Program-made: the position numbers and the translations under genes
The notes under the pieces: generated by a model
Database searches by the model: none
What the model saw: the letters and a program-made list of their open reading frames with translations, nothing else
Told to the model about the DNA's origin: nothing
From: Siphonodentalium dalli
Lineage: Eukaryota > Mollusca > Scaphopoda > Gadilida > Siphonodentaliidae
Length of the DNA: 64,000 nucleotides
Assembly: GCA_032622095.1 (NCBI GenBank)
Contig: CP136061.1
Location: 256,817,582 to 256,881,581 of the forward strand
Direction of reading: 5' to 3'
Shown here: piece after piece, positions 31,628 to 64,000 of the stretch
Layout: each line of letters begins with the position of its first letter
How positions within the stretch are numbered: the first letter of the stretch is position 1

Positions 31628-31800
31628 CAATACGGTTAGGGTTAATGTTATAGTTAGGGTTATGGTTAGGGTTAGAGTAAGGATTAGTGTTAGGGTTAGA
31701 GTTATGATCAGGCGCGGCATAGCGGCAGATAAATGGATTTGTATCCACGTGTGATTCGGACGTATAGCACAAGTGTCCGTTGTTGCAAATAATTCAAGGC
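31628..31800 (+). repeat. Interstitial TTAGGG-like tract plus linked segment, copy 1
   Basis: Degenerate GGTTAGGGTTA units (31628-31706) are followed by GGCGCGGCATAGC, GTATCCACGTGTGATTCG and CAAGTGTCCGTTGTTGCAAA. The same order recurs at 32400-32690. Confidence 0.75.
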
Positions 31801-32399: not shown

Positions 32400-32690
32400 T
32401 AGGGTTATAGGGTTAAGAACTTATGGTTAGGGTTAATTTGGGGTTAGGGTTAGGGTTAGCCACGTTTCATTTATCGTTCCCGTCAGGGTTGTAGGGTTAG
32501 GGTTAGCGATAGGGTTAGTGTTTGGGTTAGGGGTTAAGGTTAGGCGCGGCATAGCCGACAGAGAAATGCAAAATTTGTATCCACGTGTGATTCGAACATA
32601 TATTTTAATTATGTGGGTGTAATTATCAATAAACTTATCTTATCTTATAGTATACAAGTGTCCGTTGTTACAAATTTCAATCACACATTT
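32400..32690 (+). repeat. Interstitial TTAGGG-like tract plus linked segment, copy 2
   Basis: TTAGGG-rich DNA (32400-32545) precedes GGCGCGGCATAGC and GTATCCACGTGTGATTCG. About 45 bp ending CAATAAACTTATCTTATCTT interrupts the linked segment, which resumes with CAAGTGTCCGTTGTTACAAA. The interruption resembles the 3' tail of a short retroelement. Confidence 0.7.
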
Positions 32691-37208: not shown

Positions 37209-37879
37209 TAATGTTAGGAGGACCAGTGACCATCATTATGCGGACTGCGACATTATGCAGACGAAATCCGGTCTGCCTGTTTTTTGCATACCAGTCACAA
37301 CTAGTTATCTGGTGCTTTAATTGTTAACACCTCTCCTTGTTCAACCGATTTATGTTGTCTTTTGTCTATAAAATGATGGGATTGAAAATAGTTTTGTTAA
37401 GGGCATTTCAGCGCCGATAATTTTGAGACATGTATATTCTGTCGATATATAGTTTCATCATTGTGCGGTCGAAACATCCACATCAACTTTTCTGGTTTTG
37501 CATTTTTTAGGTGTAGGATGCAGCAAAAAAGGAGACAACTGGCCAAATGTCATTAAAACATCGAGAAATCTGGTGTGTACATCGAAATTGAGTACAAATG
37601 TTTGGGATTGAAAAAAGACAGCAAAATTATGAAACTATATATCGATCGAATATACATGTCTCAAAATTATCGGGGCGGAAATGCCCTTAACAACAATTTT
37701 GTCAATTCCATCATTTTATAGACAAAAGACAACCTAAATCGGTTGAACAGGGAGAGGTGTTAACAATTAAAGTGCAAGATAACTAGTTGTGACTGGCATG
37801 CAAAAACTAGGCAGACCGGATTTCGTCTGCATAATGTCGCGGTTTGCCTAATGATGGTCACTGGTCCTCCTAATGATTA
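37209..37879. mobile_element. Foldback element with ~260-bp inverted arms
   Basis: The left arm (37209-37470) starts TAATGTTAGGAGGACCAGTG. The right arm (about 37620-37879) is its inverted copy ending CTGGTCCTCCTAATGATTA, with only scattered mismatches. The ~150-bp loop contains no coding sequence. Its right edge lies just before the first fragment of the 462-bp ribozyme array. Confidence 0.85.
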
Positions 37880-38435
37880 CTCTACATAGAAGAGTTGCCC
37901 AAGCAACGAAATGTATAATGAGGTGTGTCCTACATAAAATCATTGAAAATCTTCGGACTGTGTTTCTTTTCTGATACATATATACAAGAAGAGTTGCCCA
38001 AGCAACGAAATGCATAGTGAGGTGTGTTCTACATAAAATCATTGAAAATCTTCGGACTGTGTTTCTTTTCTGATTCATATATACATCTGCACGTATGTTC
38101 TTAAAATGTTGTCATATTTATATCTACGTGCATGACAAACATGGAAAGAAGAAACGGCAAAGATACATGCAAGTAAGCAAGACTACTTCATCTAAACACA
38201 AGGATCATCTGGACAAATCTTCAAAATTGACTCTGTCGGTGCCTTATATATTGTGCATGGAAATCCAAATGTACGAAATTTGGACCATAAAACTTAATTT
38301 CCGCAACAAAGGACTGACGTCACAACGGGCCAAACGCGGACCTCAAACGAAGAGAAATGTCGGAAGATTCGATCATCGTGCTGAATACGAGGAAAAGGAG
38401 TTCCTTGTACATGATACATCTGCCGAATGAACTAT

Positions 38436-38491
38436 GAACATTATCGCCTGAAGAGTTGCCCAAGCAACGAAATGCATAGTGAGGTGTGTTC
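38436..38491 (+). ncRNA. Type-I hammerhead ribozyme candidate 1
   Basis: Core CTGAAGA (38448-38454) fits the conserved CUGANGA. GTTGC-CCAA-GCAAC makes a 5-bp stem II opening with the conserved G-C pair. GAAA follows (38469-38472), and ATGCAT makes a minimal palindromic stem III. Cleavage is expected after AUA at 38478. Stem I pairs TCGC (38444-38447) with GTGA (38479-38482), then an internal loop, then GAACA (38436-38440) with TGTTC (38487-38491). This is the layout of natural metazoan type-I hammerheads, in which short stem III versions tend to act as dimers. Confidence 0.8.
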
Positions 38492-38897
38492 TACATAAAA
38501 TCATTGAAAATCTTCGGACTGTGTTTCTTTTCTGATTCATATATACATCTGCACGTATGTTCTTAAACTGTTGTCATATTTATATCTACGTGCATGACAA
38601 ACATGGAAAGAAGAAACGGCAAAGATACATGCAAGTAAGCAAGACTACTTCATCTAAACACAAGGATCATCTGGACAAATCTTCAAAATGGACTCTGTCG
38701 GTGCCTTATATATTGTGCATGGAAATCCAAATGTACGAAATTTGGACCATAAAACTTAATTTCCGCAACAAAGGACTGACGTCACAACGGGCCAAACGCG
38801 GACCTCAAACGAAGAGAAATGTCTGAAGATTCGATCATCGTGCTGAATACGAGGAAAAGGAGTTCCTTGTACATGATACATCTGCCGAATGAACTAT

Positions 38898-38953
38898 GAA
38901 CATTATCGCCTGAAGAGTTGCCCAAGCAACGAAATGCATAGTGAGGTGTGTAC
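38898..38953 (+). ncRNA. Type-I hammerhead ribozyme candidate 2
   Basis: Identical core, stem II and stem III, exactly 462 bp after candidate 1. Predicted cleavage is after 38940. The distal stem I strand is TGTAC instead of TGTTC, giving one mismatch with GAACA. Cleavage here and at candidate 1 would release a 462-nt monomer RNA. Confidence 0.75.
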
Positions 38954-39160
38954 TACATAAAATCATTGAAAATCTTCGGACTGTGTTTCTTTTCTGATTC
39001 ATATATACATCTGCACGTATGTTCTTAAACTGTTGTCATATTTATATCTACGTGCATGACAAACATGGAAAGAAGAAACGGCAAAGATACATGCAAGTAA
39101 GCAAGACTACTTCGTCTAAACACAAGGATCATCTGGACAAATTTTCAAAATGGACTCTGT

Positions 39161-42100
39161 CCCATGCATTCACATTTCCCCGTCCCGCGGCGATATTTTT
39201 ACATACAATGTTAGATTAACATCTTCTCGACATCATTGTAGCATTTTAATGACCATAATCAAGATTAAAACATGTTTTTTTTCGCTGATGGGACGGAAGC
39301 GGTAAAGCGCAGAACAACCGTAGGAAATTGCAGAACGAAAATGTAAACAAACACCAAATCACCCCATGCATTCATATTTCCCCGTCCCGCGGCGATATTT
39401 TTGCATAAAATGTTAGATTAACATCTTCTCGACAACACTGTAGCATTTTAATGACCATAATCAAGGTTAAAACAACTTTTTTTGTCGATGGGACGGAACC
39501 TTTGGAAATTGCAGAACGGGATGGGACGGTATTAGATAGGATGGGACGGTATTAGAAACCGCAGAACAGCTAAGATAGACCCATAAACTTGCTGTTTATT
39601 AATAATACAGCATGTAGCAGCACCAAAATGGCTCTATATGGTCATCAGTGCAGCATTTTATTGGTGATCCCATTTTATTGGCCATAATCAAGATGAAAAC
39701 TACTTTTTTCGTCGATGGGACGGAAGCGAAATTGCAGAACGAAAATGTAAACAAACACCAAATCACCCCATGCATTCACATTTCCCCGTCCCGCGGCGAT
39801 ATTTTTACATCAAATGTTAGATTAACATCTTCTCGACATCATTGTAGCATTTTAATTACCATAATCAAGATTAAAACAACTTTTTATGTCGATGGGACGG
39901 AACCTTTGAAAATTGCAGAACGGGATGGGACGGTATTAGATAGGATGGGACGGTATTAGAAAACGCAGAACAGCTAAGATGGACCCCTAAACTTGCTGTT
40001 TATCAATAATACAGCATGTAGCAGCACCAAAATGGCTCTATGTGGTCATCGGTGTAGCATTTTATTGGTGATCCCATTTTATTGACCATAATCAAGATTA
40101 AAACAACTTTTTTCGCTGATGGGGCGGAACCTTTGGAAATTGCAGAACGGGATGGGACGGTATTAGATAGGATGGGACGGTATTAGAAAACGCAGAACAG
40201 CTAAGATAGACCCCTAAACTTGCTGTTTATCAATAATACACCATGTAGCAGCACCAAAATAACTCTATATGGTCATCAGTGCAGCATTTTATTGGTGAAA
40301 CCATTTTATTGACCATAATCAAGATGAAAACTACTTTTTTCGTCGATGGGACGGAGGCGAAATTGCAGAACGAAAATGTAAACAAACACCAAATCACCCC
40401 ATGCATTCACATTTCCCCGTTCCACGGTGATATTTTTGCATAAAATGTTAGATTAACATCTTTTCGACATCACTGTAGCATTTTAATGACCATAATCAAG
40501 ATGAAAACAACTTTTTATGTCGATGGGACGGAACCGTTGGAAATTGCAGAACAGGATGGGACGGTATTAGATAGGATGGGACGGTATTAGAAAACGCAGA
40601 ACAGATAAGATAGACCCCTAAACTGGCTGTTTATCAATAATACAGCATGTAGCAGCACCAAAATGGCTCTATACGGTCATCAGTGCAGCATTTTATTGGT
40701 GATCCCATTTTATTGGCCATAATCAAGATGAAAACTACTTTTTTCGTCGATGGGACGGAGGCGAAATTGCAGAACGAAAATGTAAACAAACACCAAATCA
40801 CCCCATGCATTCACATTTCCCCGTTCCACGGTGATATTTTTGCATAAAATGATAGATTAACATCTTTTCGACATCACTGTAGCATTTTAATGACCATAAT
40901 CAAGGTTAAAACAACTTTTTTTGTCGATGGGACGGAACCGTTGGAAATTGCAGAACAGGATGGGACGGTATTAGATAGGATGGGACGGTATTAGAAAACG
41001 CAGAACAGATAAGATAGACCCCTAAACTGGCTGTTTATCAATAATACAGCATGTAGCAGCACCAAAGTGGCTCTATACGGTCATCAGTGCAGCATTTTAT
41101 TGGTGATCCCATTTTATTGACCATAATCAAGATTAAAACAACTTTTTTCGCTGATGGGGCGGAACCTTTGGAAATTGCAGAACGGGATGGGACGGTATTA
41201 GATAGGATGGGACGGTATTAGAAAACGCAGAACAGCTAAGATAGACCCCTAAACTTGCTGTTTATCAATAATACAGCATGTAGCAGCACCAAAATAACTC
41301 TATATGGTCATCAGTGCAGCATTTTATTGGTGAAACCATTTTATTGACCATAATCAAGATGAAAACAACTTTTTTCGTCGATGGGACGGAAGCGAAATTG
41401 CAGAACGAAAATGTAAACAAACACCAAATCACCCCATGCATTCATATTTCCCCGTCCCGCGGCGATATTTTTACATAAAATGTTAGATTAACATCTTCTC
41501 GACATCATTGTAACATTTTAATGACCATAATCAAGATTAAAACATGTTTTTTTTCGCTGATGGGACGGAAGCGGTAAAGCGCAGAACAACCGTAGGAAAT
41601 TGCAGAACGAAAATGTAAACAAACACCACATCACCCCATACATTCTCATTTCCCCGTCCCACTGTGATATTTTTGCATAAAATGTTAGATTAACATCTTT
41701 TCGACATCACTGTAGCATTGTAATGACCATAATCAAGATTAAAACAACATTTTTTGTCGATGGGACGGAACCGTTGGAAACTGCAGAACAGGATGGGACG
41801 GTATTAGATAGGATGGGACGGTATTAGAAAACGCAGAACAGATAAGATACATGTAGACCCCTAAACTTGCTGTTTATCTATAATACAGCATGCAGCAGCA
41901 CCAAAATGGCTCTATATGGTCATCAGTGCAGCATTTTATTGGTGATCCCATTGTATTGACCATAATCAAGATGAAAACTACTTTTTTCGTCGATGGGACG
42001 GAGGCGAAATTGCAGAACGAAAATGTAAACAAACACCAAATCACCCCATGCATTCACATTTCCCCGTTCCACGGTGATATTTTTGCATAAAATGTTAGAT

Positions 42101-45100
42101 TAACATCTTTTCGACATCACTGTAGCATTTTAATGACCATAATCAAGGTTAAAACAACTTTTTTTGTCGATGGGACGGAACCGTTGGAAATTGCAGAACA
42201 GGATGGGACGGTATTAGATAGGATGGGACGGTATTAGAAAACGCAGAACAGATAAGATAGACCCCTAAACTGGCTGTTTATCAATAATACAGCATGTAGC
42301 AGCACCAAAGTGGCTCTATACGGTCATCAGTGCAGCATTTTATTGGTGATCCCATTTTATTGACCATAATCAAGATTAAAACAACTTTTTTCGCTGATGG
42401 GGCGGAACCTTTGGAAATTGCAGAACGGGATGGGACGGTATTAGATAGGATGGGACGGTATTAGAAAACGCAGAACAGCTAAGATAGACCCCTAAACTTG
42501 CTGTTTATCAATAATACAGCATGTAGCAGCACCAAAATAACTCTATATGGTCATCAGTGCAGCATTTTATTGGTGAAACCATTTTATTGACCATAATCAA
42601 GATGAAAACAACTTTTTTCGTCGATGGGACGGAAGCGAAATTGCAGAACGAAAATGTAAACAAACACCAAATCACCCCATGCATTCATATTTCCCCGTCC
42701 CGCGGCGATATTTTTACATAAAATGTTAGATTAACATCTTCTCGACATCATTGTAACATTTTAATGACCATAATCAAGATTAAAACATGTTTTTTTTCGC
42801 TGATGGGACGGAAGCGGTAAAGCGCAGAACAACCGTAGGAAATTGCAGAACGAAAATGTAAACAAACACCACATCACCCCATACATTCTCATTTCCCCGT
42901 CCCACTGTGATATTTTTGCATAAATTGTTAGATTAACATCTTTTCGACATCACTGTAGCATTGTAATGACCATAATCAAGATTAAAACAACATTTTTTGT
43001 CGATGGGACGGAACCGTTGGAAACTGCAGAACAGGATGGGACGGTATTAGATAGGATGGGACGGTATTAGAAAACGCAGAACAGATAAGATACATGTAGA
43101 CCCCTAAACTTGCTGTTTATCTATAATACAGCATGCAGCAGCACCAAAATGGCTCTATATGGTCATCAGTGCAGCATTTTATTGGTGATCCCATTGTATT
43201 GACCATAATCAAGATGAAAACAACTTTTTTCGTCGATGGGACGGAAGCGAAATTGCAGAACGAAAATGTAAACAAACACCAAATCACCCCATGCATTCAC
43301 ATTTCCCCGTCCCGAGGCGATATTTTTACATCAAATGTTAGATTAACATCTTCTCGACATCATTGTAGCATTTTAATTACCATAATCAAGATTAAAACAA
43401 CTTTTTATGTCGATGGGACGGAACCTTTGAAAATTGCAGAACGGGATGGGACGGTATTAGATAGGATGGGACGGTATTAGAAAACGCAGAACAGCTAAGA
43501 TGGACCCCTAAACTTGCTGTTTATCAATAATACAGCATGTAGCAGAACCAAAATGGCTCTATGTGGTCATCAGTGTAGCATTTTATTGGTGATCCCATTT
43601 TATTGACCATAATCAAGATGAAAACAACTTTTTTCGTCGATGGGACGGAAGCGAAATTGCAGAACGAAAATGTAAACAAACACCAAATCACCCCATGCAT
43701 TCACATTTTCCCGTCCCACGGTGATATTTTTGCATAAAATGTTAGATTAACATCTTTTCGACATCACTGTAGCATTTTAATGACCATAATCAAGATTAAA
43801 ACAACTTTTTATGTCGATGGGATCGACGGAACCTTTGGAAATTGCAGAACGGGAAGGGACGGTATTAGATAGGATAGGACGGTATTAGAAAACGCAGAAC
43901 AGCTAAGATAGACCCATAAACTGGCTGTTTATCAATAATACAGCATGTAGCAGCACCAAAATGGCTCTATACGGTCATCAGTGCAGCATTTTATTGGTGA
44001 TCCTATTTTATTGACCATAATGAAGATTAAAACAACTTTTTTCGCTGATGGGACGGAACCTTTGGTAATTACAGAACGGGATGGGACGGTATTAGATAGG
44101 ATGGGACGGTATTAGAAAACGCAGAACAGCTAAGATAGACCCCTACACTTGCTGTTTATCAATAATACAGCATGTAGCAGCACCAAAATGACTCTATATG
44201 GTCATCAGTGCAGCATTTTATTGGTGAAACCATTTTATTGACCATAATCAAGATGAAAACAACTTTTTTCGTCGATGGGACGGAAGCGAAATTGCAAAAC
44301 GAAAATGTAAACAAACACCAAATCACCCCATGCATTCATATTTCCCCGTCCCGCGGCGATATTTTTACATAAAATGTTAGATTAACATCTTCTCGACATC
44401 ATTGTAACATTTTAATGACCATAATCAAGATTAAAACATGTTTTTTTTTCGCTGATGGGACGGAAGCGGTAAAGCGCAGAACAACCGTAGGAAATTGCAG
44501 AACGAAAATGTAAACAAACACCAAATCACCCCATACATTCTCATTTCCCCGTCCCACTGTGATATTTTTGCATAAAATGTTAGATTAACATCTTTTCGAC
44601 ATCACTGTAGCATTGTAATGACCATAATCAAGATTAAAACAACATTTTTTGTCGATGGGACGGAACCGTTGGAAATTGCAGAACAGGATGGGACGGTATT
44701 AGATAGGATGGGACGGTATTAGAAAAGCAGAACAGATAAAGATAGACCCCTAAACTTGCTGTTTGTCAATAATACAGCATGCAGCAGCACCAAAATGGCT
44801 CTACATGGTCATCAGTGCAGCATTTTATTGGTGATCCCATTGTATTGACCATAATCAAGATGAAAACAACTTTTTTCGTCGATGGGACGGAAGCGAAATT
44901 GCAGAACGAAAATGTAAACAAACACCAAATCACCCCATGCATTCACATTTCCCCGTCCCGCGGCGATATTTTTACATCAAATGTTAGATTAACATCTTCT
45001 CGACATCATTGTAGCATTTAATTACCATAATCAAGATTAAAACAACTTTTTATGTCGATGGGACGGAACCTTTGAAAATTGCAGAACGGGATGGGACGGT

Positions 45101-46438
45101 ATTATATAGGATGGGACGGTATTAGAAAACGCAGAACAGCTAAGATGGACCCCTAAACTTGCTGTTTATCAATAATACAGCATGTAGCAGCACCAAAATG
45201 GCTCTATGTGGTCATCAGTGTAGCATTTTATTGGTGATCCCATTTTATTGACCATAATCAAGATGAAAACAACTTTTTTCGTCGATGGGACGGAAGCGAA
45301 ATTGCAGAACGAAAATGTAAACAAACACCAAATCACCCCATGCATTCACATTTTCCCGTCCCACGGTGATATTTTTGCATAAAATGTTAGATTAACATCT
45401 TTTCGACATCACTGTAGCATTTTAATGACCATAATCAAGATTAAAACAACTTTTTTTGTCGATGGGACGGAACCTTTGGAAATTGCAGAACGGGATGGGA
45501 CGGTATTAGATAGGATGTGACGGTATTAGAAAACACAGAACAGCTAAGATAGACCCCTAAACTGGCTGTGTATCAATAATACAGCATGTAGCAGCACCAA
45601 AATGGCTCTATACAGTCATCAGTGCAGCATTTTATTGGTGATCCCATTTTATTGACCATAATCAAGATTAAAACATATTTTTTCGCTGATGGGACGGAAG
45701 AGGTAAAGCGCAGAACAACCATAGGAAATTGCTGAACGAAAATGTAAACAAACACCAAATCACCCCATGCATTCATATTTCCCCGTCCCGCGGTGATATT
45801 TTTGCATAAAATGTTAGATTAACATCTTTTCGACAACACTGTAGCATTTTAATGACCATAATCGAGGTTAAAACAACTTTTTTTTGTCGATGGAACGGAA
45901 CCTTTGGAAATTGCAGAACGGGATGGGACGGTATTAGATAGGATGGGACGGTATTATAAAACGCAGAACAGCTAACATCTTTTCGACATCATGACCAATG
46001 ATTAAAACAACTTTTTTCGCTGATGGGATAGCAGCGGCAAAACTCAGAACAACCTTTGGATATTGCAGAACTGGATGGGACGGTATTAGATGGGATGAAA
46101 TGGTATTAGATGGGTTGAGACGGTGTTAGAGAACTCAGAACAGAAAGATGGGACGGGACAAAAAAGTTAACGCCGAACAACCTTTGGAAACAACAAAATC
46201 ATTCAATGCATTTACATTTCCCCGTCCCATTGTGACATGTTAAAATGTTACATTTTCTCGACATTTGTGTGGCACAAAACAACTCGTCGCGCCGACGGTA
46301 CAGCTTGCGTCATCGATATGGGACAGAGGAGCTATGGTAAAACGCAGAACGAACATAACAAAATCAGTTTTTTCTTACAAATTGTGTGGTAAATCCAAAT
46401 ATCACATGCGAGTACTATAAGAATTCACTATTAATGAA
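39161..46438. repeat. Complex satellite with 1,243-bp higher-order repeat, block 1
   Basis: Subunits of about 177-233 bp each contain CCATAATCAAGAT, CGATGGGACGGAA and TTGCAGAACG. Landmarks at 40642, 41885 and 43128, and at 41273 and 42516, are each exactly 1,243 bp apart. In one period the subunit lengths are 177, 202, 233, 177, 227 and 227. Adjacent periods differ at only a few positions, so homogenisation is recent. Further landmarks are spaced 404, 408, 227 and about 607 bp, showing unit gain and loss. GGATGGGACGGTATTAGA is doubled inside the unit. The right end (about 45960-46438) is divergent. Open frames up to 115 codons repeat with the satellite and are not considered genes. Confidence 0.9.
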
Positions 46439-48490
46439 GATGATGATGATTTATTCTCATAATTCGCATGAACATCGAGAAGTACAGAGAAAGAAGTATT
46501 TACAAAAGAACATAAGGATATATACATTATATACATGTATCCGGTGCTATGGGGATATCTATATTCTAATATGTGAATATAATAATGTATGTTATCGTGT
46601 TTCATTTGGCTCTGTGGTATGAAATTGTTAGTACTGCTTCCTGAAAACAGATGACCCCATGTGTCATCTTTTACATCTCTGTTTAACGGTAAATAGTCAG
46701 TAATATAACAGTAGTAATTTGACAGAGTCTTTCTGATGACAGATATAGTTACATGGTGTGTTTGTCATAGCTAATTAGGAATTTTAGAGTGACAATATTA
46801 AGATAATTTGACAAATTCAGATATTTAGTTGATTGATGAGTTCGGATCAGGACCGTGTCCCATTGTGAGTGTTGCACGACACGAATGCATGCCTGCTTGT
46901 GTTGTTTATACGTGGTTCAGAACTTGTGTCTGTCTTCATGTTCAGTTATGGATTGGAAGGGGGGGGGGGGGTCAATACACAAACAATGGGCTGGTATAAA
47001 TTCGTCCCTAAAAGGGGACAGTCCTCCGTTAAATTACCGTTTAAATGAGCACCTTCAGCAATATATAATGTGTATATGTATACATGTACAATATACGCAT
47101 TTAACAATAAAGTCTATATTAGTATATATCATACAGCAATGGATTGGGTAATACATATAATGGATATGAATATATTAAATATATTTGAAGAGACAACTCA
47201 TATCTAATATACAAAAGTTGAAGTGGAATTTTAGCACAAAGTGTTATCATGATGTGCTTATGTTTGAGAGCTCTGTGTGGACTGTTCGGATCAGCATGCA
47301 TATTCTGTTTAGAATTATGGGGTCTTATGAGTTCAGGATTTCATCCATAATCAAAATATTTATTTTATCACCATATTTTTGGGGGATAATTTTCTTCCTT
47401 ATGTGCGCAAATTTTTTGCATTCCAATAAATAGTGGAATTCGTCTGCTATCATGTTATGGTTACATAGGCGACATGTTCTATCCTTGTGGGGTGTTCCGT
47501 TCCATCTCCCAGTTTCTATTGGGAGGTTGTGGTTCGCTGTTCTGAATCTGCAGAATTCAATTCGGTTTTTACTTTGTAAGATATCAAGATATTTTTCAAA
47601 GGAGAAATTGTGTTTAAATATGCGATATATTTGGCCTCTACTTGATTTGTTCATTTCAGAGTCCCACTTTATTTTAAAGTCTCTTAGAAGACTGTTTTTC
47701 ACGCAATCAAGGAATTGATTGGCACACTTTAGTTCACCAGATGTCAGTAAATCTGCCTGGCCACAGCTACGCAAGATCTCTCGGATTTCTCTTGTCCACT
47801 TAAAAAGCTTTTTATCGGCATCTCCCATAAGTTTCACTGACAAATCATAAAGCACTTTCCCATACCGTGTGTATGTCATATTTTTTATTTTCAACCAATA
47901 CTTTAACAATCTTAACTTTATTGTGATGTCCAATGGATATCTTCCTGATTCGCCATAAATCATATAGTTGGGTGTTGATGGTTTCAAATTTAGGATATGT
48001 TTTAAAAAATTTCGGTGTACATTTTCGAGTACCTGGTTATCTCCATAACCCCATATCTCACAGCCGTACAATAATATTGGCAGCACCTGTGAATCGAATA
48101 GGTCCAATTGATTAGCTACTGAGAGGCAGTTTTCTCGGGATCGTTTTATCACAGAGTACATTGCATGACTGCCTTTTGTTGCAAGAATTTGTTTTGTTTC
48201 TGTGTATGATCCCGATTTTGTATGCATAATTCCTAAATAATTGAACTTTTTCACTACTTCAAGATTAGTGCTATCAAATGTGAATTGTATGTTTCTTGGT
48301 AAGCTACGTTTTGAAATGAGTAAAATTTTCGTTTTATTTATATTTACTTTTAGTTTCCATTTATTGCAGTACAAGCTGAAAACGTTAAGTTCTTTTTGCA
48401 GTTTTTTTGGGGTTTCAGCCATAAGCACTGTATCATCTGCATATAGTATGAGAAGTAATTTCGTGTAAACATTTAATTCTTGTTCAGTCT
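46439..48490 (-). mobile_element. 5'-truncated non-LTR retrotransposon inserted in the satellite
   Basis: The satellite ends sharply at TTAATGAA (46438); the duplicate copy at 50078 continues differently. The element's minus-strand 3' end is AATAAATCATCATCATC, a short tandem tail as in CR1/L2-type LINEs. The 5' side stops at 48490, where satellite GGTATTAGATAGG resumes. About 890 bp of 3' untranslated sequence follows the ORF. The two flanks are not adjacent parts of one satellite unit, so rearrangement accompanied or followed insertion. Confidence 0.85.
47325..48488 (-). CDS. LINE reverse transcriptase, C-terminal part (5'-truncated)
   Basis: A 387-codon uninterrupted frame begins at the truncation point, about 16 residues before the RT catalytic box LYADDTVLMAE. 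It continues through the thumb region (CNKWKLKVNINKTKIL, FNYLGI, LLYGCEIWGYG) and a C-terminal zinc-knuckle-like motif CRLCNHNMIADEFHYLLECKKF (C-x2-C-x8-H-x4-C), ending at TAG. The endonuclease, RT finger domain and most of the palm are missing, so it cannot be active alone. The order of motifs fits the Jockey/CR1/L2 group. The clean reading frame suggests a young insertion. No normal start codon applies; in the parent element translation began far upstream. Confidence 0.85.
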   Translation of the reverse strand, partial: TEQELNVYTKLLLILYADDTVLMAETPKKLQKELNVFSLYCNKWKLKVNINKTKILLISKRSLPRNIQFTFDSTNLEVVKKFNYLGIMHTKSGSYTETKQILATKGSHAMYSVIKRSRENCLSVANQLDLFDSQVLPILLYGCEIWGYGDNQVLENVHRNFLKHILNLKPSTPNYMIYGESGRYPLDITIKLRLLKYWLKIKNMTYTRYGKVLYDLSVKLMGDADKKLFKWTREIREILRSCGQADLLTSGELKCANQFLDCVKNSLLRDFKIKWDSEMNKSSRGQIYRIFKHNFSFEKYLDILQSKNRIEFCRFRTANHNLPIETGRWNGTPHKDRTCRLCNHNMIADEFHYLLECKKFAHIRKKIIPQKYGDKINILIMDEILNS

Positions 48491-50078
48491 GGTATTAGAT
48501 AGGATAGGACGGTATTAGATAGGATAGGACGGTATTAGAAAACGCAGAACAGCTAAGATATACCCCTAAACTGGCTGTTTATCAATAATACAGCATGTAG
48601 CAGCACCAAAATGGCTCTATACGGTCATCAGTGCAGCATTTTATTGGTGATCCCATTTTATTGACCATAATCAAGATTAAAACAACTTTTTTCGCTGATG
48701 GGACGGAACCTTTGGAAATTACAGAACGGGATGGGACGGTATTAGATAGGATGGGACGGTATTAGAAAACGCAGAACAGCTAAGATAGACCCCTACACTT
48801 GCTGTTTATCAATAATACAGCATGTAGCAGCACCAAAATGACTCTATATGGTCATCAGTGCAGCATTTTATTGGTGAAACCATTTTATTGACCATAATCA
48901 AGATGAAAACAACTTTTTTCGTCGATGGGACGGAAGCGAAATTGCAGAACGAAAATGTAAACAAACACCAAATCACCCCATGCATTCATATTTCCCCGTC
49001 CCGCGGCGATATTTTTACATCAAATGTTAGATTAACATCTTCTCGACATCATTGTAGCATTTTAATTACCATAATCAAGATTAAAACAACTTTTTATGTC
49101 GATGGGACGGAACCTTTGAAAATTGCAGAACGGGATGGGACGGTATTAGATAGGATGTGACGGTATTAGAAAACACAGAACAGCTAAGATAGACCCCTAA
49201 ACTGGCTGTTTATCAATAATACAGCATGTAGCAGCACCAAAATGGCTCTATACAGTCATCAGTGCAGCATTTTATTGGTGATCCCATTTTATTGACCATA
49301 ATCAAGATTAAAACATATTTTTTCGCTGATGGGACGGAAGAGGTAAAGCGCAGAACAACCATAGGAAATTGCTGAACGAAAATGTAAACAAACACCAAAT
49401 CACCCCATGCATTCATATTTCCCCGTCCCGCGGTGATATTTTTGCATAAAATGTTAGATTAACATCTTTTCGACAACACTGTAGCATTTTAATGACCATA
49501 ATCGAGGTTAAAACAACTTTTTTTTGTCGATGGAACGGAACCTTTGGAAATTGCAGAACGGGATGGGACGGTATTAGATAGGATGGGACGGTATTAGAAA
49601 ACGCAGAACAGCTAACATCTTTTCGACATCATGACCAATGATTAAAACAACTTTTTTCGCTGATGGGATAGCAGCGGCAAAACTCAGAACAACCTTTGGA
49701 TATTGCAGAACTGGATGGGACGGTATTAGATGGGATGGGATGGTATTAGATGGGTTGAGACGGTGTTAGAGAACTCAGAACAGAAAGATGGGACGGGACA
49801 AAAAAGTTAACGCAGAACAACCTTTGGAAACAACAAAATCATTCAATGCATTTACATTTCCCCGTCCCATTGTGACATGTTAAAATGTTACATTTTCTCG
49901 ACATTTGTGTGGCACAAAACAACTCGTCGCGCCGACGGTACAGCTTGCGTCATCGATATGGGACAGAGGAGCTATGGTAAAACGCAGAACGAACATAACA
50001 AAATCAGTTTTTTCTTACAAATTGTGTGGTAAATCCAAATATCACATGCGAGTACTATAAGAATTCACTATTAATGAA
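48491..50078. repeat. Satellite block 2 (duplicate of the right end of block 1)
   Basis: From about 48571 it follows 43921-44340 at offset 4650, sharing the rare CCCTACACTT variant. From about 49150 it follows 45510-46438 at offset 3640, sharing GGATGTGACGG and the divergent array end. The offset change means a ~1-kb segment present in block 1 is absent here. Confidence 0.85.
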
Positions 50079-50745: not shown

Positions 50746-51432
50746 AAATGCATAGTGAGGTGTGTTCTACATAAAATCATTGAAAATCTTCGGACTGTGT
50801 TTCTTTTCTGATTCATATATACATCTGCACTTATGTTCTTAAAATGTTGTCATATTTATATCTACGTGCATGACAAACATGGAAAGAAGAAACGGCAACG
50901 ATACATGCAAGTAAGCAAGACTACTTCATCTAAACACAAGGATCATCTGGACAAATCTTCAAAATTGACTCTGTCGGTGCCTTATATATTGTGCATGGAA
51001 ATCCAAATGTACGAAATTTGGACAATAAAACTTAATTTCCGCAACAAAGGACTGACGTCACAACGGGCCAAACGCGGACCTCAAACGAAGAGAAATGTCG
51101 GAAGATTAGATCATCGTGCTGAATACGAGGAAAAGGAGTTCCTTGTACATGATACATCTGCCGAATGAACTATGAACATTATCGCCTGAAGAGTTGCCCA
51201 AGCAACGAAATGCATAGTGAGGTGTGTTCTACATAAAATCATTGAAAATCTTCGGACTGTGTTTCTTTTCTGATTCATATATACATCTGCACGTATGTTC
51301 TTAAACTGTTGTCATATTTATATCTACGTGCATGACAAACATGGAAAGAAGAAACGGCAAAGATACATGCAAGTAAGCAAGACTACTTCGTCTAAACACA
51401 AGGATCATCTGGACAAATCTTCAAAATGGACT
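50746..51432 (+). repeat. 462-bp tandem array with hammerhead motif, block 2
   Basis: A partial unit starts inside the ribozyme (AAATGCATAGTGAGG) and a second, truncated unit follows after a hammerhead at 51174. It lies at offset 12,738 from block 1 and has the same truncation into satellite (GGACTCTGCCCATGCATT), so the junction was copied rather than formed twice. Confidence 0.8.
51174..51229 (+). ncRNA. Type-I hammerhead ribozyme candidate 3
   Basis: Same elements as candidate 1: CTGAAGA (51186-51192), stem II, GAAA (51207-51210), AUA cleavage after 51216, GAACA (51174-51178) with TGTTC (51225-51229). Fully matched distal stem I. Confidence 0.8.
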
Positions 51433-54400
51433 CTGCCCATGCATTCACATTTCCCCGTCCCGCGGCGATATTTTTACATACAATGTTAGATTAACATCTT
51501 CTCGACATCATTGTAGCATTTTAATGACCATAATCAAGATTAAAACATGTTTTTTTTCGCTGATGGGACGGAAGCGGTAAAGCGCAGAACAACCGTAGGA
51601 AATTGCAGAACGAAAATGTAAACAAACACCAAATCACCCCATGCATTCACATTTCCCCGTCCCGCGGCGATATTTTTACATCAAATGTTAGATTAACATC
51701 TTCTCGACATCATTGTAGCATTTTAATTACCATAATCAAGATTAAAACAACTTTTTATGTCGATGGGACGGAACCTTTGAAAATTGCAGAACGGGATGGG
51801 ACGGTATTAGATAGGATGGGACGGTATTAGAAAACGCAGAACAGCTAAGATGGACCCCTAAACTTGCTGTTTATCAACAATACAGCATGTAGCAGCACCA
51901 AAACGGCTCTATGTGGTCATCAGTGTAGCATTTTATTGGTGATCCCATTTTATTGACCATAATCAAGATGAAAACAACTTTTTTCGTCGATGGGACGGAG
52001 GCGAAATTGCAGAACGAAAATGTAAACAAACACCAAATCACCCCATGCATTCACATTTCCCCGTTCCACGGTGATATTTTTGCATAAAATGTTAGATTAA
52101 CATCTTTTCGACATCACTGTAGCATTTTAATGACCATAATCAAGATGAAAACAACTTTTTATGTCGATGGGACGGAACCGTTGGAAATTGTAGAACAGGA
52201 TGGGACGGTATTAGATAGGATGGGACGGTATTAGAAAACGCAGAACAGATAAGATAGACCCCTAAACTGGCTGTTTATCAATAATACAGCATGTAGCAGC
52301 ACCAAAATGGCTCTATACGGTCATCAGTGCAGCATTTTATTGGTGATCCCATTTTATTGACCATAATCAAGATTAAAACAACTTTTTTCGCTGATGGGGC
52401 GGAACCTTTGGAAATTGCAGAACGGGATGGGACAGTATTATATAGGATGGGACGGTATTAGAAAACGCAGAACAGCTAAGATAGACCCCTAAACTTGCTG
52501 TTTATCAATAATACAGCATGTAGCAGCACCAAAATGGCTCTATCTGGTCATCAGTGTAGCATTTTATTGGTGATCCCATTTTATTGACCATAATCAAGAT
52601 GAAAACAACTTTTTTCGTCGATGGGACGGTGGCGAAATTGCAGAACGAAAATGTAAACAAACACCAAATCACCCCATGCATTCACATTTCCCCGTTCCAC
52701 GGTGATATTTTTGCATAAAATGTTAGATTAACATCTTTTCGACATCACTGTAGCATTTTAATGACCATAATCAAGATGAAAACAACTTTTTATGTCGATG
52801 GGACGGAACCGTTGGAAATTGCAGAACAGGATGGGACGGTATTAGATAGGATGGGACGGTATTAGAAAACGCAGAACAGATAAGATAGACCCCTAAACTG
52901 GCTGTTTATCAATAATACAGCATGTAGCAGCACCAAAATGGCTTTATACGGTCATCAGTGCAGCATTTTATTGGTGATCCCATTTTATTGACCATAATCA
53001 AGATTAAAACAACTTTTTTCGCTGATGGGGCGGAACCTTTGGAAATTGCAGAACGGGATGGGACGGTATTAGATAGGATGGGACGGTATTAGAAAACGCA
53101 GAACAGCTAAGATAGACCCCTAAACTGGCTGTTTATCAATAATACAGCATGTAGCAGCACCAAAATAACTCTATATGGTCATCAGTGCAGCATTTTATTG
53201 GTGAAACCATTTTATTGACCATAATCAAGATGAAAACAACTTTTTTCGTCGATGGGACGGAAGCGAAATTGCAGAACGAAAATGTAAACAAACACCAAAT
53301 CACCCCATGCATTCATATTTCCCCGTCCCGCGGCGATATTTTTACATAAAATGTTAGATTAACATCTTCTCGACATCATTGTAACATTTTAATGACCATA
53401 ATCAAGATTAAAACATGTTTTTTTTCGCTGATGGGACGGAAGCGGTAAAGCGCAGAACAACCGTAGGAAATTGCAGAACGAAAATGTAAACAAACACCAA
53501 ATCACCCCATACATTCTCATTTCCCCGTCCCACTGTGATATTTTTGCAAAAAATGTTAGATTAACATCTTTTCGACATCACTGTAGCATTGTAATGACCA
53601 TAATCAAGATTAAAACAACATTTTTTGTCGATGGGACGGAACCGTTGGAAATTGCAGAACAGGATGGGACGGTATTAGATAGGATGGGACGGTATTAGAA
53701 AACGCAGAACAGATAAGATACATGTAGACCCCTAAACTTGCTGTTTATCAATAATACAGCATGCAGCAGCACCAAAATGGCTCTATATGGTCATCAGTGC
53801 AGCATTTTATTGGTGATCCCATTGTATTGACCATAATCAAGATGAAAACAACTTTTTTCGTCGATGGGACGGAAGCGAAATTGCAGAACGAAAATGTAAA
53901 CAAACACCAAATCACCCCATGCATTCACATTTCCCCGTCCCGAGGCGATATTTTTACATCAAATGTTAGATTAACATCTTCTCGACATCATTGTAGCATT
54001 TTAATTACCATAATCAAGATTAAAACAACTTTTTATGTCGATGGGACGGAACCTTTGAAAATTGCAGAACGGGATGGGACGGTATTAGATAGGATGGGAC
54101 GGTATTAGAAAACGCAGAACAGCTAAGATGGACCCCTAAACTTGCTGTTTATCAATAATACAGCATGTAGCAGCACCAAAATGGCTCTATGTGGTCATCA
54201 GTGTAGCATTTTATTGGTGATCCCATTTTATTGACCATAATCAAGATGAAAACAACTTTTTTCGTCGATGGGACGGAAGCGAAATTGCAGAACGAAAATG
54301 TAAACAAACACCAAATCACCCCATGCATTCACATTTTCCCGTCCCACGGTGATATTTTTGCATAAAATGTTAGATTAACATCTTTTCGACATCACTGTAG

Positions 54401-59639: not shown

Positions 59640-62600
59640 TTTAGGTACTTGAACAGAATTATGATAATGAATTATGAAACTGGATATATTTTACCAACAA
59701 ATTATGTACACGGTGCTAAGAGGGAGAAATTATATATAAGAAAGGGCCGACAGCCCTCCATGAGGAAAAACTGTTTTACCTTAATTATGACCACCTGGGC
59801 TGATTTTACCCATAACCAGGGATGTGGCTAGAGGGGGGGTGTAGGGGGGTGTCTCACCCCCCCCCCCCAGCAGAGAGCTATATTTTCAATAGTTGGAAAT
59901 TTCATACCTGCCACAACGAAATTTCACACCAACAATAGGTTGAAAATGTTCTTGTAGTTTGATTATAAAACAATTTATTGGGAGGAATTTATTGTTTTTC
60001 GACCAATATTTGCATATGTTCCTATTTTTGGTCAAAAATTTTGACAGAAATGGTCATCAGTTGGAAATTTTCCAACCTTAGGTGGGTGACAGGTTGGAAA
60101 TTTCCAACACTTGGAAAGCTTTTGTCCTGGTCCCTTCCCCATGGCCAGTCAAAAACTGCTAGCTAATTTAAGAAAACAATATTGTCATTCATTTGGTCAA
60201 CATTGTCCTTGGAATTGTCATCAGTTGGAAATTTTCCAACCTAAGTGGGGGTGTATGGTTTGAAATTTCCAACAGTAGGAAGGCTTGAGGCTAGTCTAGA
60301 TGTTAGGATTTTGCGATTTTCTTGTTCAGATTTAAAAAAAATTCGCACACCGGGCCGAACCATGGTCGGCCCGGTGTGTCGTTGCCCCATCCACATGGCC
60401 AATACAATACTGCTAATTAGTTTAGCAAAACAATATTTTACTACATTTGGTCAAACTTGTAGACATAAATGGTCATCAGTTGAAGAATTTTCCAACCTGA
60501 GGGGGAGCATGAGGTTTGAAATTTCCAACACTAGGAAAGCTTCAGTTGAGGCCAGTCTAGATGCTAGGATTTGCGATTTTCTTGTATAGTTTTCAAAATT
60601 TTCTCACACCGGGCCGAACAACCATGGTCGGCCCGGTGTTTCCTGGTCTGTTGTCGGTAGCTGTGTGCATTTGTCTGGAATTAGATCACTAGTTGTTTTT
60701 TTTGGGGAAATTTTCAGGTTAAAATATCTTAATGTTCTCATACTGGGAAAATAGAAGCATGGCTTATGAATATATAGGAAATTAGGCCTGAGCATGAGGT
60801 ACAAGGAGGGGGGGTGCAAATGGAATTATGAAAAAAGTTGTGTTGGTGATTCCGACTCAAGGGGGGGGGGGTGCAAATGGAATTATGCAAAAGTTGTGTT
60901 GGTGTGATTCCGACTCAAGGGGGGGGGTGCAGTTGGAAATTCCCAAGGTGGACACCCCCCCAGCGGAGACCCTCTATCCACATCCCTGCCCATAACTGAT
61001 GATACGTCATGTGATAGGGTCATATTATGTATACGAAAAGGGAACAACAGCCCTCCACAGTTCCGGACCATATCGGGTTGTTATCGGTTAACCCTTGGCG
61101 ATAAACAAAGATGTTATACTTGAAATTGGTTAACACAAATTAGAGTTTTACCCGAATTACGGCCAGCTGGGTAGATTCTACTCGCAAATGGTGGCAGGTA
61201 ATGTTATAGGATCCAATTATGTAAACATAAAGGTACGACAGCCCTCCATGTGTAATGACCATATCGGTTTGCTAGCCGTAACCATTGGCGGGTGATGTAG
61301 ATTTTAAGCGAAATTGGTCCAAATTTGAGAACTTGACCTGATTTTTCATGGCCAACTGAGCAGATTCTAACCATTATAATAATAGCACGTCATGCTATAG
61401 AACCCCATTATGTATACAAAAAGGACCGGTAGCCCTCCATGTGTAAAGAAACTATCAGCTTGCTAGCGGTTAACCCTTTGCGATTTAATTTGATTTTATG
61501 CGAAATTGGTCCCACATTTATAGTTTTATCTGAATTATGGCCAACTGGGCTGATTCTACCCATAACTGATGACAAGTCATAGTATATAATTAAATTATGT
61601 ATACAAAAAGGTACGACAGCCATCCATGTGTAATAACAATTATTATATCGGTTTCATATCAGTTAACCCTTAGCGGGGGGTGTCGATATTATGCGAAATT
61701 GGTTCAAATTAGAGAATTTGACATGAATTATGGCCAACTGGGCAGAATCTACCCATAACTGAAGACAAGTCATAATGTAAGATCCAATTATGTATACGAA
61801 AAGGTACGACAGCCACCCATGTCTAATGACAATATCGGTTTCCTATCAGTTAACCCATGGCGGGTGATGTCGATTTTATGCGAAATTGGTCCCACATTTA
61901 TAGTTTTATCTGAATTATGGCCAACTGGGCAGATTCTACCCATAACTGATGATAAGTCATATTATATAATCCAATTATGTATTCGAAAAGGTACAACCGC
62001 CATCCATGTGTAATAACAATACCGGTTTCCTATCAGTTAACCCTTGGCGGGGGTGTCGATTTTATGCGAAATTGGTTCCAATTAGATAATTTGACATGAA
62101 TTATGGCCAAATGGGCAGATTCTACCCATAAATGATGACAAGTCATAGTATAGGATCAAATTATGTATACGAAAGGGTGCGACAGCCATCCATATGTAAT
62201 GACAATATCGGTTTCCTATCAGTTAACCCATGGCGGGTGATGTCGATTTTATGCGCAATTGGTCCCACATTTATAGTTTTATCTGAATTATGGCCATCTG
62301 TGCAGACTCAGCCCATAACTGATGACAAGTCATAGTATATGATGCAATTTTGTATACGAAAAGGTACGACGGCGATCAATGTGTAATCAAAATATCGGTT
62401 TCCTACCAGTTAACCCTTGGCGGGTGATATCGATTTTATGCGAAATTGGTTCCAATTAGTGAATTTGACATGAATTATGGCCAACCGATGACACGTTATA
62501 GTATAGGATTTTATTATGTAAACAAAAAGGTACGACAGCCATCCACTTGTAAAGACAATATCGGTTTCCTGTCAGTTAACCCTTGGCGGGTGTGTCGATT

Positions 62601-63620
62601 TTATGCGAAATTGTTTCGAATTAGAGAATTGGACATGAATTATGGCCAACTGGGCAGATTCTATCAATAACTGATGACAAGTCATTATGTAGGATCCAAC
62701 TATGTATACGAAAAGGTACGACAGCCATCCATGTGAAATGAAAATATCGGTTTCCTATCAGTTAACCCATGGCGGGTGATGTCGATTCTATGCGAAAATG
62801 GTCCCACATTTAAGGTTTTATCTGAATTATGGCCAACTGGGCAGATTCTACCCATAAATCATGACAAGTCATAGTATAGGATCCAATTATGTATTCGAAA
62901 GGGTACGACAGCCATCCGTGTGTAATGACAATACTGGTTTCCTAGCAGTTAACCCTTGGCGGGCGATGTCGATTTTATGCGAAATTGGTTCACATTAGAG
63001 AATTTGACATGAATTATGGCCAACTGGGCAGATTCTACCCATAACTGATGACAAGTGATAGTATATGATCCCATTATGTATTCGAAAAGGTACGATAGCC
63101 ATCCATGTCTAATGACAATACCGGTTTCCTATCAGTTAACCCTTGGTGGGGATGACGATTTTATGCGAAATGTATAGGCTCCAATTATGTAAACGAAAAG
63201 GTACGACAGCAATCCATGTTTAATGACAATATCGGTTTCCTATCAGTTAACCCACGGCGGGTGATGTCGATTCTATGCGAAAATGGTCCCAGATTTAAGG
63301 TTTTATCTGAATTATGGCCAACTGGGCAGATTCTACCCACAACTCATGACAAGTCATAGTATAGGATCCAATTATGTATTCGAAAAGGTACGACAGCCAT
63401 CCATGTGTAATGACACTACTGGTTTCCTAGCAGTTAACACTTGGCGGGTGATATCGATTTTATGCGAAATCGGATCGAATTAGAGAATAGGACATGAATT
63501 ATGGCCCACTGGGCAGATTCTACCCATAACTGATGACAAATCATATTATAGGATTCAATTATGTATACAAAAAGGTACGACAGCCATCCACTTGTAAACC
63601 CAATATCTATTTGCTATCAG
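59640..63620. repeat. 187-bp satellite, interrupted by an hAT-type element
   Basis: The landmark GGTACGACAGCC recurs from 61611 at 193, 187, 186, 187, 166, 186, 187, 187, 111, 187 and 187 bp. Diverged units extend left to about 59640. Each unit has TATGGCCAACTGGGCAGATT, CCCATAACTGATGAC and TATCGGTTTCCTATCAGTTA. Two units are shortened (166 and 111 bp). Confidence 0.9.
59817..60988. mobile_element. 1,172-bp non-autonomous hAT-type transposon in the 187-bp satellite
   Basis: It starts CAGGGATGTGGCTAGAGGGG and ends CCCTCTATCCACATCCCTG, an inverted pair. CCCATAAC, part of the satellite unit, is duplicated exactly at 59809-59816 and 60989-60996. The 8-bp duplication and CAGGG terminus define an hAT-like element. 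The interior repeats GTTGGAAATTTxCCAAC and a CACACCGGGCCGAACxATGG / CGGCCCGGTGTG palindrome, plus poly-G and poly-C runs. No transposase. Confidence 0.9.
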
Positions 63621-64000
63621 TTTTTTTTTATAAATGTTTATTGAAGAAACAATCACATTGAGGAATGTCAAATACAGAATGTTCAATAGCATTGATAAGT
63701 GTATACAGATATGGCATTCCTCGCGTTCACACATATCTCTTTCTTACTGCACGCACTCGCCTGGCTCACATCATTCGCACACCAGTGGTATAAAGTTATA
63801 CAATACATAAACATATGCATATGCTTAGTATATATATAGTAAATGTATTATAAATATGTCGGATGTTTCGGATGGACTCAACTCTCAACATAGAGGCTAT
63901 TGTGGAGATGGTGGTAGATAGTATATGTTTTAACTGACTGCGTGATAATCGATAGGAGTCTCAAAAATTAAAGTAACTTTGTCGAATTTTTATTAAGTCG
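63621..64000 (-). mobile_element. Probable 3' end of a retroelement, running off the window
   Basis: The satellite stops at TTGCTATCAG and is followed by a T run. On the minus strand this is CAATAAACATTTATAAAAAA, a polyadenylation signal plus A tail. The remaining 380 bp are unlike any other part of the window and contain no ORF. Confidence 0.5.

Follow-up and report, generated by a model that had tools for sequence, protein, structure and literature searches.

A 462-bp hammerhead repeat of Siphonodentalium dalli, a probable non-autonomous metazoan retrozyme, and its insertion footprint at AT repeats

Animal repeats that carry type-I hammerhead ribozymes are described as non-LTR retrozymes, and give rise to linear and circular RNAs of 170-400 nt (Cervera and de la Pena 2020, PMC7229834). 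In the available sections of that source, metazoan non-LTR retrozymes are repeats of 150-450 bp with RNAs of ~170-400 nt, their copy number ranges from ~1500 canonical motifs in a coral to more than 126,000 motifs in the axolotl, and Penelope-like elements are put forward as a strong candidate for their mobilisation, with the priming step left undefined. The repeat of S. dalli analysed here has a unit of 462 bp and occupies only ~10 loci, and it combines insertion at (AT)n with a shared internal 3' end, neither of which is described in those sections of PMC7229834. Its short palindromic stem III is like that of the salamander type, which cleaves better as dimers; the newt and axolotl repeats are likewise tandem, with a weak stem III of one pair closing a palindromic tetranucleotide, but they are 330-350 bp long and present in tens of thousands of copies (available sections of PMC7229834). 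Plant LTR retrozymes are, like the 462-bp unit, non-autonomous and equipped with self-cleaving hammerheads, the circular RNA being known there and predicted here (PMC4918200, as described in PMC7229834), whereas their hammerheads are of type III and accompanied by LTR features (PMC7229834, same sections) and that of the unit is of type I. The Penelope-like element Poseidon of Anolis (Frangieh et al. 2024, PMC11167929) resembles the unit, in the available text of the source, in its tandem and partial-tandem copies, its hammerhead, its AT-rich targets and its internal start of reverse transcription, and internal initiation is known in vitro for the Anolis Penelope-like element from the same text; the unit differs from Penelope-like elements such as Poseidon in encoding neither reverse transcriptase nor endonuclease.

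The window, by which is meant the whole 64,000-nt stretch of DNA that was analysed, carries the 462-bp tandem repeat at 37889-39161, where ~2.5 units and a 99-bp fragment are found. Tandem Repeats Finder (TRF) assigns 37988-39161 a period of 462, with 2.5 copies at 99% matches, and reports a doublet of 99 bp at 37883-38086. With unit position 1 defined as the first nucleotide 3' of the predicted hammerhead cut, the features are as follows.

37889..37987, + strand: 5'-truncated, diverged fragment (unit 434-462, then 1-69, plus one extra letter)
37988..39161, + strand: array A (unit 434-462, full units at 38017-38478 and 38479-38940, partial unit 1-221)
38095..38430, + strand: lysine-rich 111-codon frame of unit A.3, judged non-coding
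38436..38491, + strand: hammerhead 1, type I (core CUGAAGA at 38448-38454; predicted cut 38478^38479)
38539..38545, + strand: AUAUAUA tract, unit 61-67 (counterpart in the next unit at 39001-39007)
38898..38953, + strand: hammerhead 2, type I (core CTGAAGA at 38910-38916; predicted cut 38940^38941)
39162..45975, + strand: 404/227-bp satellite on the 3' side of array A (TRF rows from 39324; 39162-39323 read by eye)
50746..51435, + strand: array B, ~1.5 units, carrying the third hammerhead; 3' junction with the 404-bp satellite nearly as in array A
51174..51229, + strand: hammerhead 3, in array B (core at 51186; predicted cut 51216^51217)

The repeat has the tandem, low-GC character of retrozymes: GC is 0.387 across 38001-40000 (a span that includes arrays and satellite), below the 45-50% taken as the bound for such repeats, and the period of 462 lies slightly above the range of about 150-450 bp. 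Other repeats of the window include a pair of inverted arms of ~40 bp upstream of array A (~37418-37460 and 37629-37677, recognised by eye and possibly MITE-like), degenerate interstitial TTAGGG-type repeats (31634-31704 and 32492-32544), and a satellite with a 187-bp period and higher-order periods (60989-63622) that is unrelated to the 462-bp unit.

An earlier note on this DNA had proposed tandem units with type-I hammerheads at 38436-38491 and 38898-38953. All the hammerhead parts that it named can be read directly in the sequence, and the two motifs lie 462 bp, or one unit, apart as it had said; the third site (core 51186) is additional to these. The two 5'-most copies, starting at 37889 and 37988, have their 5' end within the core, at G5, and are therefore without a complete ribozyme, so that the description holds for the sites at 38436 and 38898 and fails for these two copies. 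Hammerhead 1 consists of stem II (GUUGC/CCAA/GCAAC), GAA, the palindromic stem III AUGCAU (38472-38477) and A17 at 38478, and its local minimum-energy fold has a two-part stem I of 4 bp, a 2x3 internal loop and 6 bp; the internal loop of stem I (UA/GGU) and the loop of stem II (CCAA) are both present in this fold. In canonical type-I hammerheads loops I and II make a tertiary contact. Sequence and scans thus agree on a candidate type-I hammerhead with a complete core, as in retrozymes. The local fold has an energy of -15.1 kcal/mol (z -2.43), which 4 of 200 shuffles equalled. An unusually self-paired 462-nt circle was also considered and dropped (-99.9 against -92.5 +/- 6.4 kcal/mol for 100 shuffles, z -1.15).

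The hammerhead motif of the 462-bp unit exceeds chance expectation. A strict structural scan, which demands core, stem II, short stem III and stem I, finds three sites in the window (38448, 38910 and 51186) and 0 in 50 Markov-1 random windows, and a looser scan finds the identical three sites against 0.04 per random window. Genome-wide, a degenerate pattern of core, stem II and stem III has 14 matches, all inside loci of the 462-bp unit, and its reversed control has 0; 12 of the 14 are letter-identical, one breaks the palindrome and one breaks a stem-II pair. The covariance search with the Rfam hammerhead families, which the earlier note had offered as a check, turned up no match in the window or the genome: in the window no family reached its gathering score and no hammerhead family matched at E<=10, and Hammerhead_1 had no match in the genome (73 of 419,522 candidates scored) or in the control genomes. 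At E<=0.5, Rfam likewise placed no hammerhead on ten loci that bear other hammerhead-like motifs of the same genome, so the test is insensitive; the Rfam search as used misses short-stem-III hammerhead motifs, including those of this genome, and was dropped as arbiter of hammerhead identity. With a covariance model made from six other hammerhead-like motifs of the same genome, each of the three window sites is recovered at E 0.45, and a probably spurious hit at position 2207 scores better (E 0.019); ranking the three sites below such a hit, the home-made model was set aside as weak support.

Hammerhead-like motifs of other kinds were also seen in this genome. The loci L040 to L044 are dispersed elements that each have a motif of the CTGATGAG type at about position 1100; three of them (L040, L041 and L042) have the stem II letters GTTGC/GCAAC in common with the 462-bp unit, and blastn gave a single 17-nt match, elsewhere. 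A 90-bp hammerhead-like array on the minus strand occurs at G000 C6:222007928-222012564 (L051:3429-4401, L045:1-3765) and again at L046:319-1062. Thirteen of its units match the intact CTGATGAG pattern, and the consensus CTGACAAG is without G8, so that most units are probably dead. The flanks of the two 90-bp arrays are the same and, judged by eye, look like a dispersed element; the unit is smaller than published repeats. An independent mini-retrozyme was rejected on account of the common flanks and the loss of G8 from the consensus; a mostly dead motif that expanded locally is the likelier account.

The lysine-rich 111-codon frame, which the earlier note had counted as a feature of the element, proved to be a variant of the window. 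It is open in two of ten full units (A.3 and its duplicate B.2) and stopped in the other eight, at codon 78 in seven units and at codon 90 in one (A.4), and a coding role is rejected for this reason. Substitutions at codon positions 1/2/3 number 15/19/12, with no third-position excess; a frame of at least 111 codons arises in 6 of 1000 shuffles, which makes the one in the window variant unusual, but the family as a whole has not retained it. The unit is non-coding, as metazoan retrozymes are, and a stop-to-stop listing of its frames contains none of reverse transcriptase size (longest about 111 codons). The fusion to a large satellite claimed for the element is probably secondary: arrays A and B both give way to the 404-bp satellite at almost the same point of the unit, with the same satellite sequence next to it, so that B looks like a satellite-carried duplicate of A, and the satellite adjacency probably lies outside the element proper.

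In a search of the genome (2.23 Gb, nine contigs), at least ten loci match the 462-bp unit and represent about eight independent insertions; all first-look candidates were scored, and the counts are lower bounds. Independence was judged from flanks of 60 to a few hundred bases, with window B merged with window A and C5:163.07M merged with C5:162.64M. Each of these two pairs has private variants in common; the window pair has nearly the same satellite junction, the C5 pair has a right flank identical at 199 of the first 200 bases, and from their sequence both look like segmental duplicates. Copies range in length from 70 bp (C7) to 1543 bp (C4, 3.3 units). The first unit at C5:162.6M (L011:1288-1330) is without ~45 bp of the hammerhead region, unit position 429 being joined to ~12.

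Units resemble their array neighbours more than units elsewhere, the mean difference among ten full units being 7.9 within arrays and 15.3 between them (B grouped with A and C5:163 with C5:162, B.2 and F.2 included). With the duplicates B.2 and F.2 left out, 10 of 1680 label arrangements were as extreme as the true one in a permutation test. Variants fixed within an array were found at unit 278, 280, 310 and 311 (window), 195 and 325 (C5:127M) and 153 (C4). Those at 92 and 174 are common to several arrays, and those at 139 and 401 vary among C5:127M units; these four are not cleanly sorted by array and count against a strict one-template picture. Array homogeneity fits reverse transcription of one circle or of one homogeneous multimer alike, and could also come from unequal exchange; the duplicated C5 arrays keep their unit-specific differences in order, so exchange has not erased differences since the duplication. 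Divergence between arrays is 2-4%, which makes the family young enough for its junctions to be read.

The unit is dispersed, with junctions of retrotransposition type as expected of a retrozyme, at about eight independent sites. Five of the eight insertions (C4, C1:84.6M, C8, C5:87.6M and C7) have their outer 3' end at unit 60-67, in the tract CATATATA, and continue from there into AT repeats; at C5:127M the 3' end falls in a different AT tract (unit 97-101), in the C5:162/163 pair at unit 33, and in window arrays A and B at unit 221 and 219, against the 404-bp satellite. From the sequence of these ends we infer that the tract at unit 60-67 is a probable start of reverse transcription; the position of most 3' ends at +60-67 compares with about 85-92 nt past the cut in Anolis (computed from the available text of PMC11167929). 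A 37-nt periodic spacing of 3' ends (+33, +70, +107) was a first reading and was dropped, because two of these ends (+70 and +107) slide within AT tracts, at 60-67 and 97-101 respectively, and the pair of copies ending at +33 arose by segmental duplication.

The 5' end is different at every locus: it falls at unit 1 (C7), 129, 248, 253, 301, 352 and 377, at 409 in the direct part of C5:162, at 454 in window B and, twice, at 434 in window A. Such scatter has the appearance of truncation while copying toward the 5' side of the RNA. At C7 the copy has its first letter precisely at unit 1, the predicted cut, as would be expected from a template that had cleaved itself. If ends are uniform, the chance of a single such end in a set of about eight is ~2%, and this start is suggestive only. 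At C5:162.6M an inverted segment (unit 397-232) is followed by a direct copy from 409, a layout that resembles LINE-1 twin priming and would fit priming by both target strands, as in target-primed copying. Inverted 5' pieces are also known for rotifer Penelope elements (available sections of PMC3846280).

An (AT)8 run lies no more than 40 bp from the junction at five of the eight independent insertions, up to 12 element-side letters being allowed, and is missing at the other three (C4, the C5:162/163 pair and the window). There are 242,997 (AT)8 matches in 2.23 Gb, at most ~1% of positions are that near one, and the chance of a nearby run is at most about 2% per site with two junctions; proximity being this rare genome-wide, five of eight insertions beside (AT)8 is far beyond chance. 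Target-site duplications, which in retrozymes exceed 4 bp when present, are by eye unreadable in (AT)n, where most sites fall.

Reverse transcriptase with a C-terminal GIY-YIG domain is the hallmark of Penelope-like elements. Scoring of 150 out of 797 candidates gave at least 146 GIY-YIG matches in the genome of S. dalli, many of them in tandem arrays of 4.4-4.9 kb, and three of four scanned GIY-YIG proteins also match RVT_1 in the same frame, the fourth (L034) matching GIY-YIG only. Arrays of the L033 and L032 types have two long frames per unit, the first frame of L032 being without a Pfam match. Hammerhead-like motifs with a palindromic stem III occur in 7 of 19 fetched GIY-YIG loci, in a scan without random control; these are five copies of one family's motif, one motif in L033 and one in L031. 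The L033-type pattern has 12 genome matches against 3 for its reversed control. Strict stem-II scans of the Penelope-like loci returned no motif because the resident motifs carry an extra nucleotide after A9, and a scan without the stem-II condition found them; the Anolis template, by our own reading of the available text of PMC11167929, has this nucleotide too, and the 462-bp unit does not.

In all three L032-family arrays that were examined, the 3' ends fall within a AAAATATATATA tract inside the element. The tract, sought by its exact letters with any final letter but G, has 125 matches, and among the 100 of these that were listed the next unit follows in 53 and the sequence leaves the element in 47; of the latter, 23 enter at least five further AT repeats and 24 do not. 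CTAG flanks, noted by eye in six of the 47, suggest recurrent neighbours. This 3' end lies ~344 nt upstream of the hammerhead-like cut, whereas that of the 462-bp unit lies just downstream of it. In one array of a second Penelope-like family the element ends in an ACACAC tract at (AC)n. Among the arrays at L033 and L047 and at L032 and L048-L050, 3' ends enter (AC)n or (TA)n, the latter in two of three L032-family arrays. The AU tract and the (TA)n ends together indicate that the 3' end of one or more resident Penelope-like families is internal to the RNA, in a tract that matches the dinucleotide target, and the 462-bp unit shows similar behaviour.

The preferred reading, to which a probability of about two in three is given, is that the 462-bp unit is a non-autonomous, non-LTR metazoan retrozyme spread by target-primed copying, probably by a Penelope-like enzyme. 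The features read from the sequence are its hammerhead architecture, dispersal, truncation, common 3' ends, (AT)n sites and array-specific variants, together with the co-resident Penelope-like elements. The retrozyme-like element with type-I hammerheads that the earlier note had proposed from the window is thereby upheld, by the sequence itself, by the ~8 dispersed sites with retrotransposition-type junctions and by resident Penelope-like elements with hammerhead-like motifs.

A retrozyme mobilised by a LINE-type enzyme instead of a Penelope-like one is considered unlikely. Inversion and truncation at the 5' end are also habits of LINEs, and a LINE-like reverse transcriptase fragment lies between the two window arrays (47325-48494, minus strand; a 389-residue frame with RVT_1 and a cysteine-rich end, without a GIY-YIG match), but placement at (TA)n and an internal AU-tract end are what the unit has in common with a resident Penelope-like family. 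Ranked behind this, and doubtful as well, is the possibility that the unit is a pseudo-LTR or an internally deleted derivative of an unrecognised Penelope-like element. Tandem and partial-tandem copies, 5' truncation, inverted 5' pieces and hammerheads, all seen here, have been described for Penelope-like elements, and the resident ones carry hammerhead-like motifs; yet unit positions 71-422 match the same 462-unit loci only (20 genome matches, all 19 candidates scored), blastn of the unit against the 19 fetched GIY-YIG loci gives words of 12-13 nt only, and the core of the unit is without the extra nucleotide of the resident motifs. The unit has a hammerhead, and this is not joined to a Penelope-like frame. 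Neither the genome search nor the 19 GIY-YIG loci yielded an element that encodes reverse transcriptase and shares sequence with the unit, so that it is target sites and motif architecture that link the unit to Penelope-like elements; an autonomous partner sharing unit sequence turned up in neither search, though one may exist.

Spread at the DNA level, in which a hammerhead satellite moved by recombination at (AT)n, by extrachromosomal circles or by segmental duplication, is improbable as an account of the family. The window A/B and C5:162.6M/163.1M pairs do look like plain segmental duplicates, but five other loci have the same 3' end and different 5' ends, which fits 3'-to-5' copying of RNA, and short copies of 70-280 bp exist. 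That the hammerhead is a chance look-alike in an ordinary satellite is very improbable, the missing Rfam match and weak covariance-model score being set against 0 sites in 50 random windows under the strict scan and 12 identical plus 2 near-identical motifs across the 462-unit loci with a reversed control of 0.

For the retrozyme with a borrowed Penelope-like enzyme, we infer cleavage, circularisation, a circular template and the identity of the enzyme, and the following course may be proposed. A genomic tandem array would be transcribed, and its type-I hammerheads would cut after A17 to leave 462-nt monomers; with the palindromic AUGCAU as stem III, the hammerheads probably work best as pairs in a multimer. 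A host ligase could circularise the 462-nt monomers, the circle being a prediction. A borrowed reverse transcriptase, most likely that of a resident Penelope-like RT/GIY-YIG element, would nick TA-rich DNA, the (TA)n end would pair with the AUAUAUA tract that lies inside the unit, 60-67 nt beyond the cut, and backward copying, sometimes for more than one round, would produce 5'-truncated arrays of up to 3.3 units. As a tentative generalisation, which is possible rather than probable, the circles of animal retrozymes may be copied in trans by microsatellite-seeking Penelope-like enzymes, the genomic (TA)n cut end priming on the AUAUAUA of the circle and rolling-circle reverse transcription laying down a tandem array in one event. 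A circular RNA would have no 3' end of its own, and the AU tract, matching that of the Penelope-like element, would be the targeting signal of the retrozyme. Neither the insertion of retrozymes into (TA)n nor an internal start tract common to their copies was described in the literature searched, which had most subscription journals outside it.

The 462 family is a new member of the metazoan retrozymes, slightly over the published range in size. The interesting part is its insertion footprint, a concrete clue to the possible mode of movement of small circular-RNA parasites in animals. Since its junctions can be read, showing an internal start tract common to several copies, targets in (TA)n, truncated 5' ends and one start at the predicted cut, beside a resident Penelope-like family of similar target preference, the question of retrozyme mobility may be reducible to a single RNA, a single protein and a single (TA)n target.
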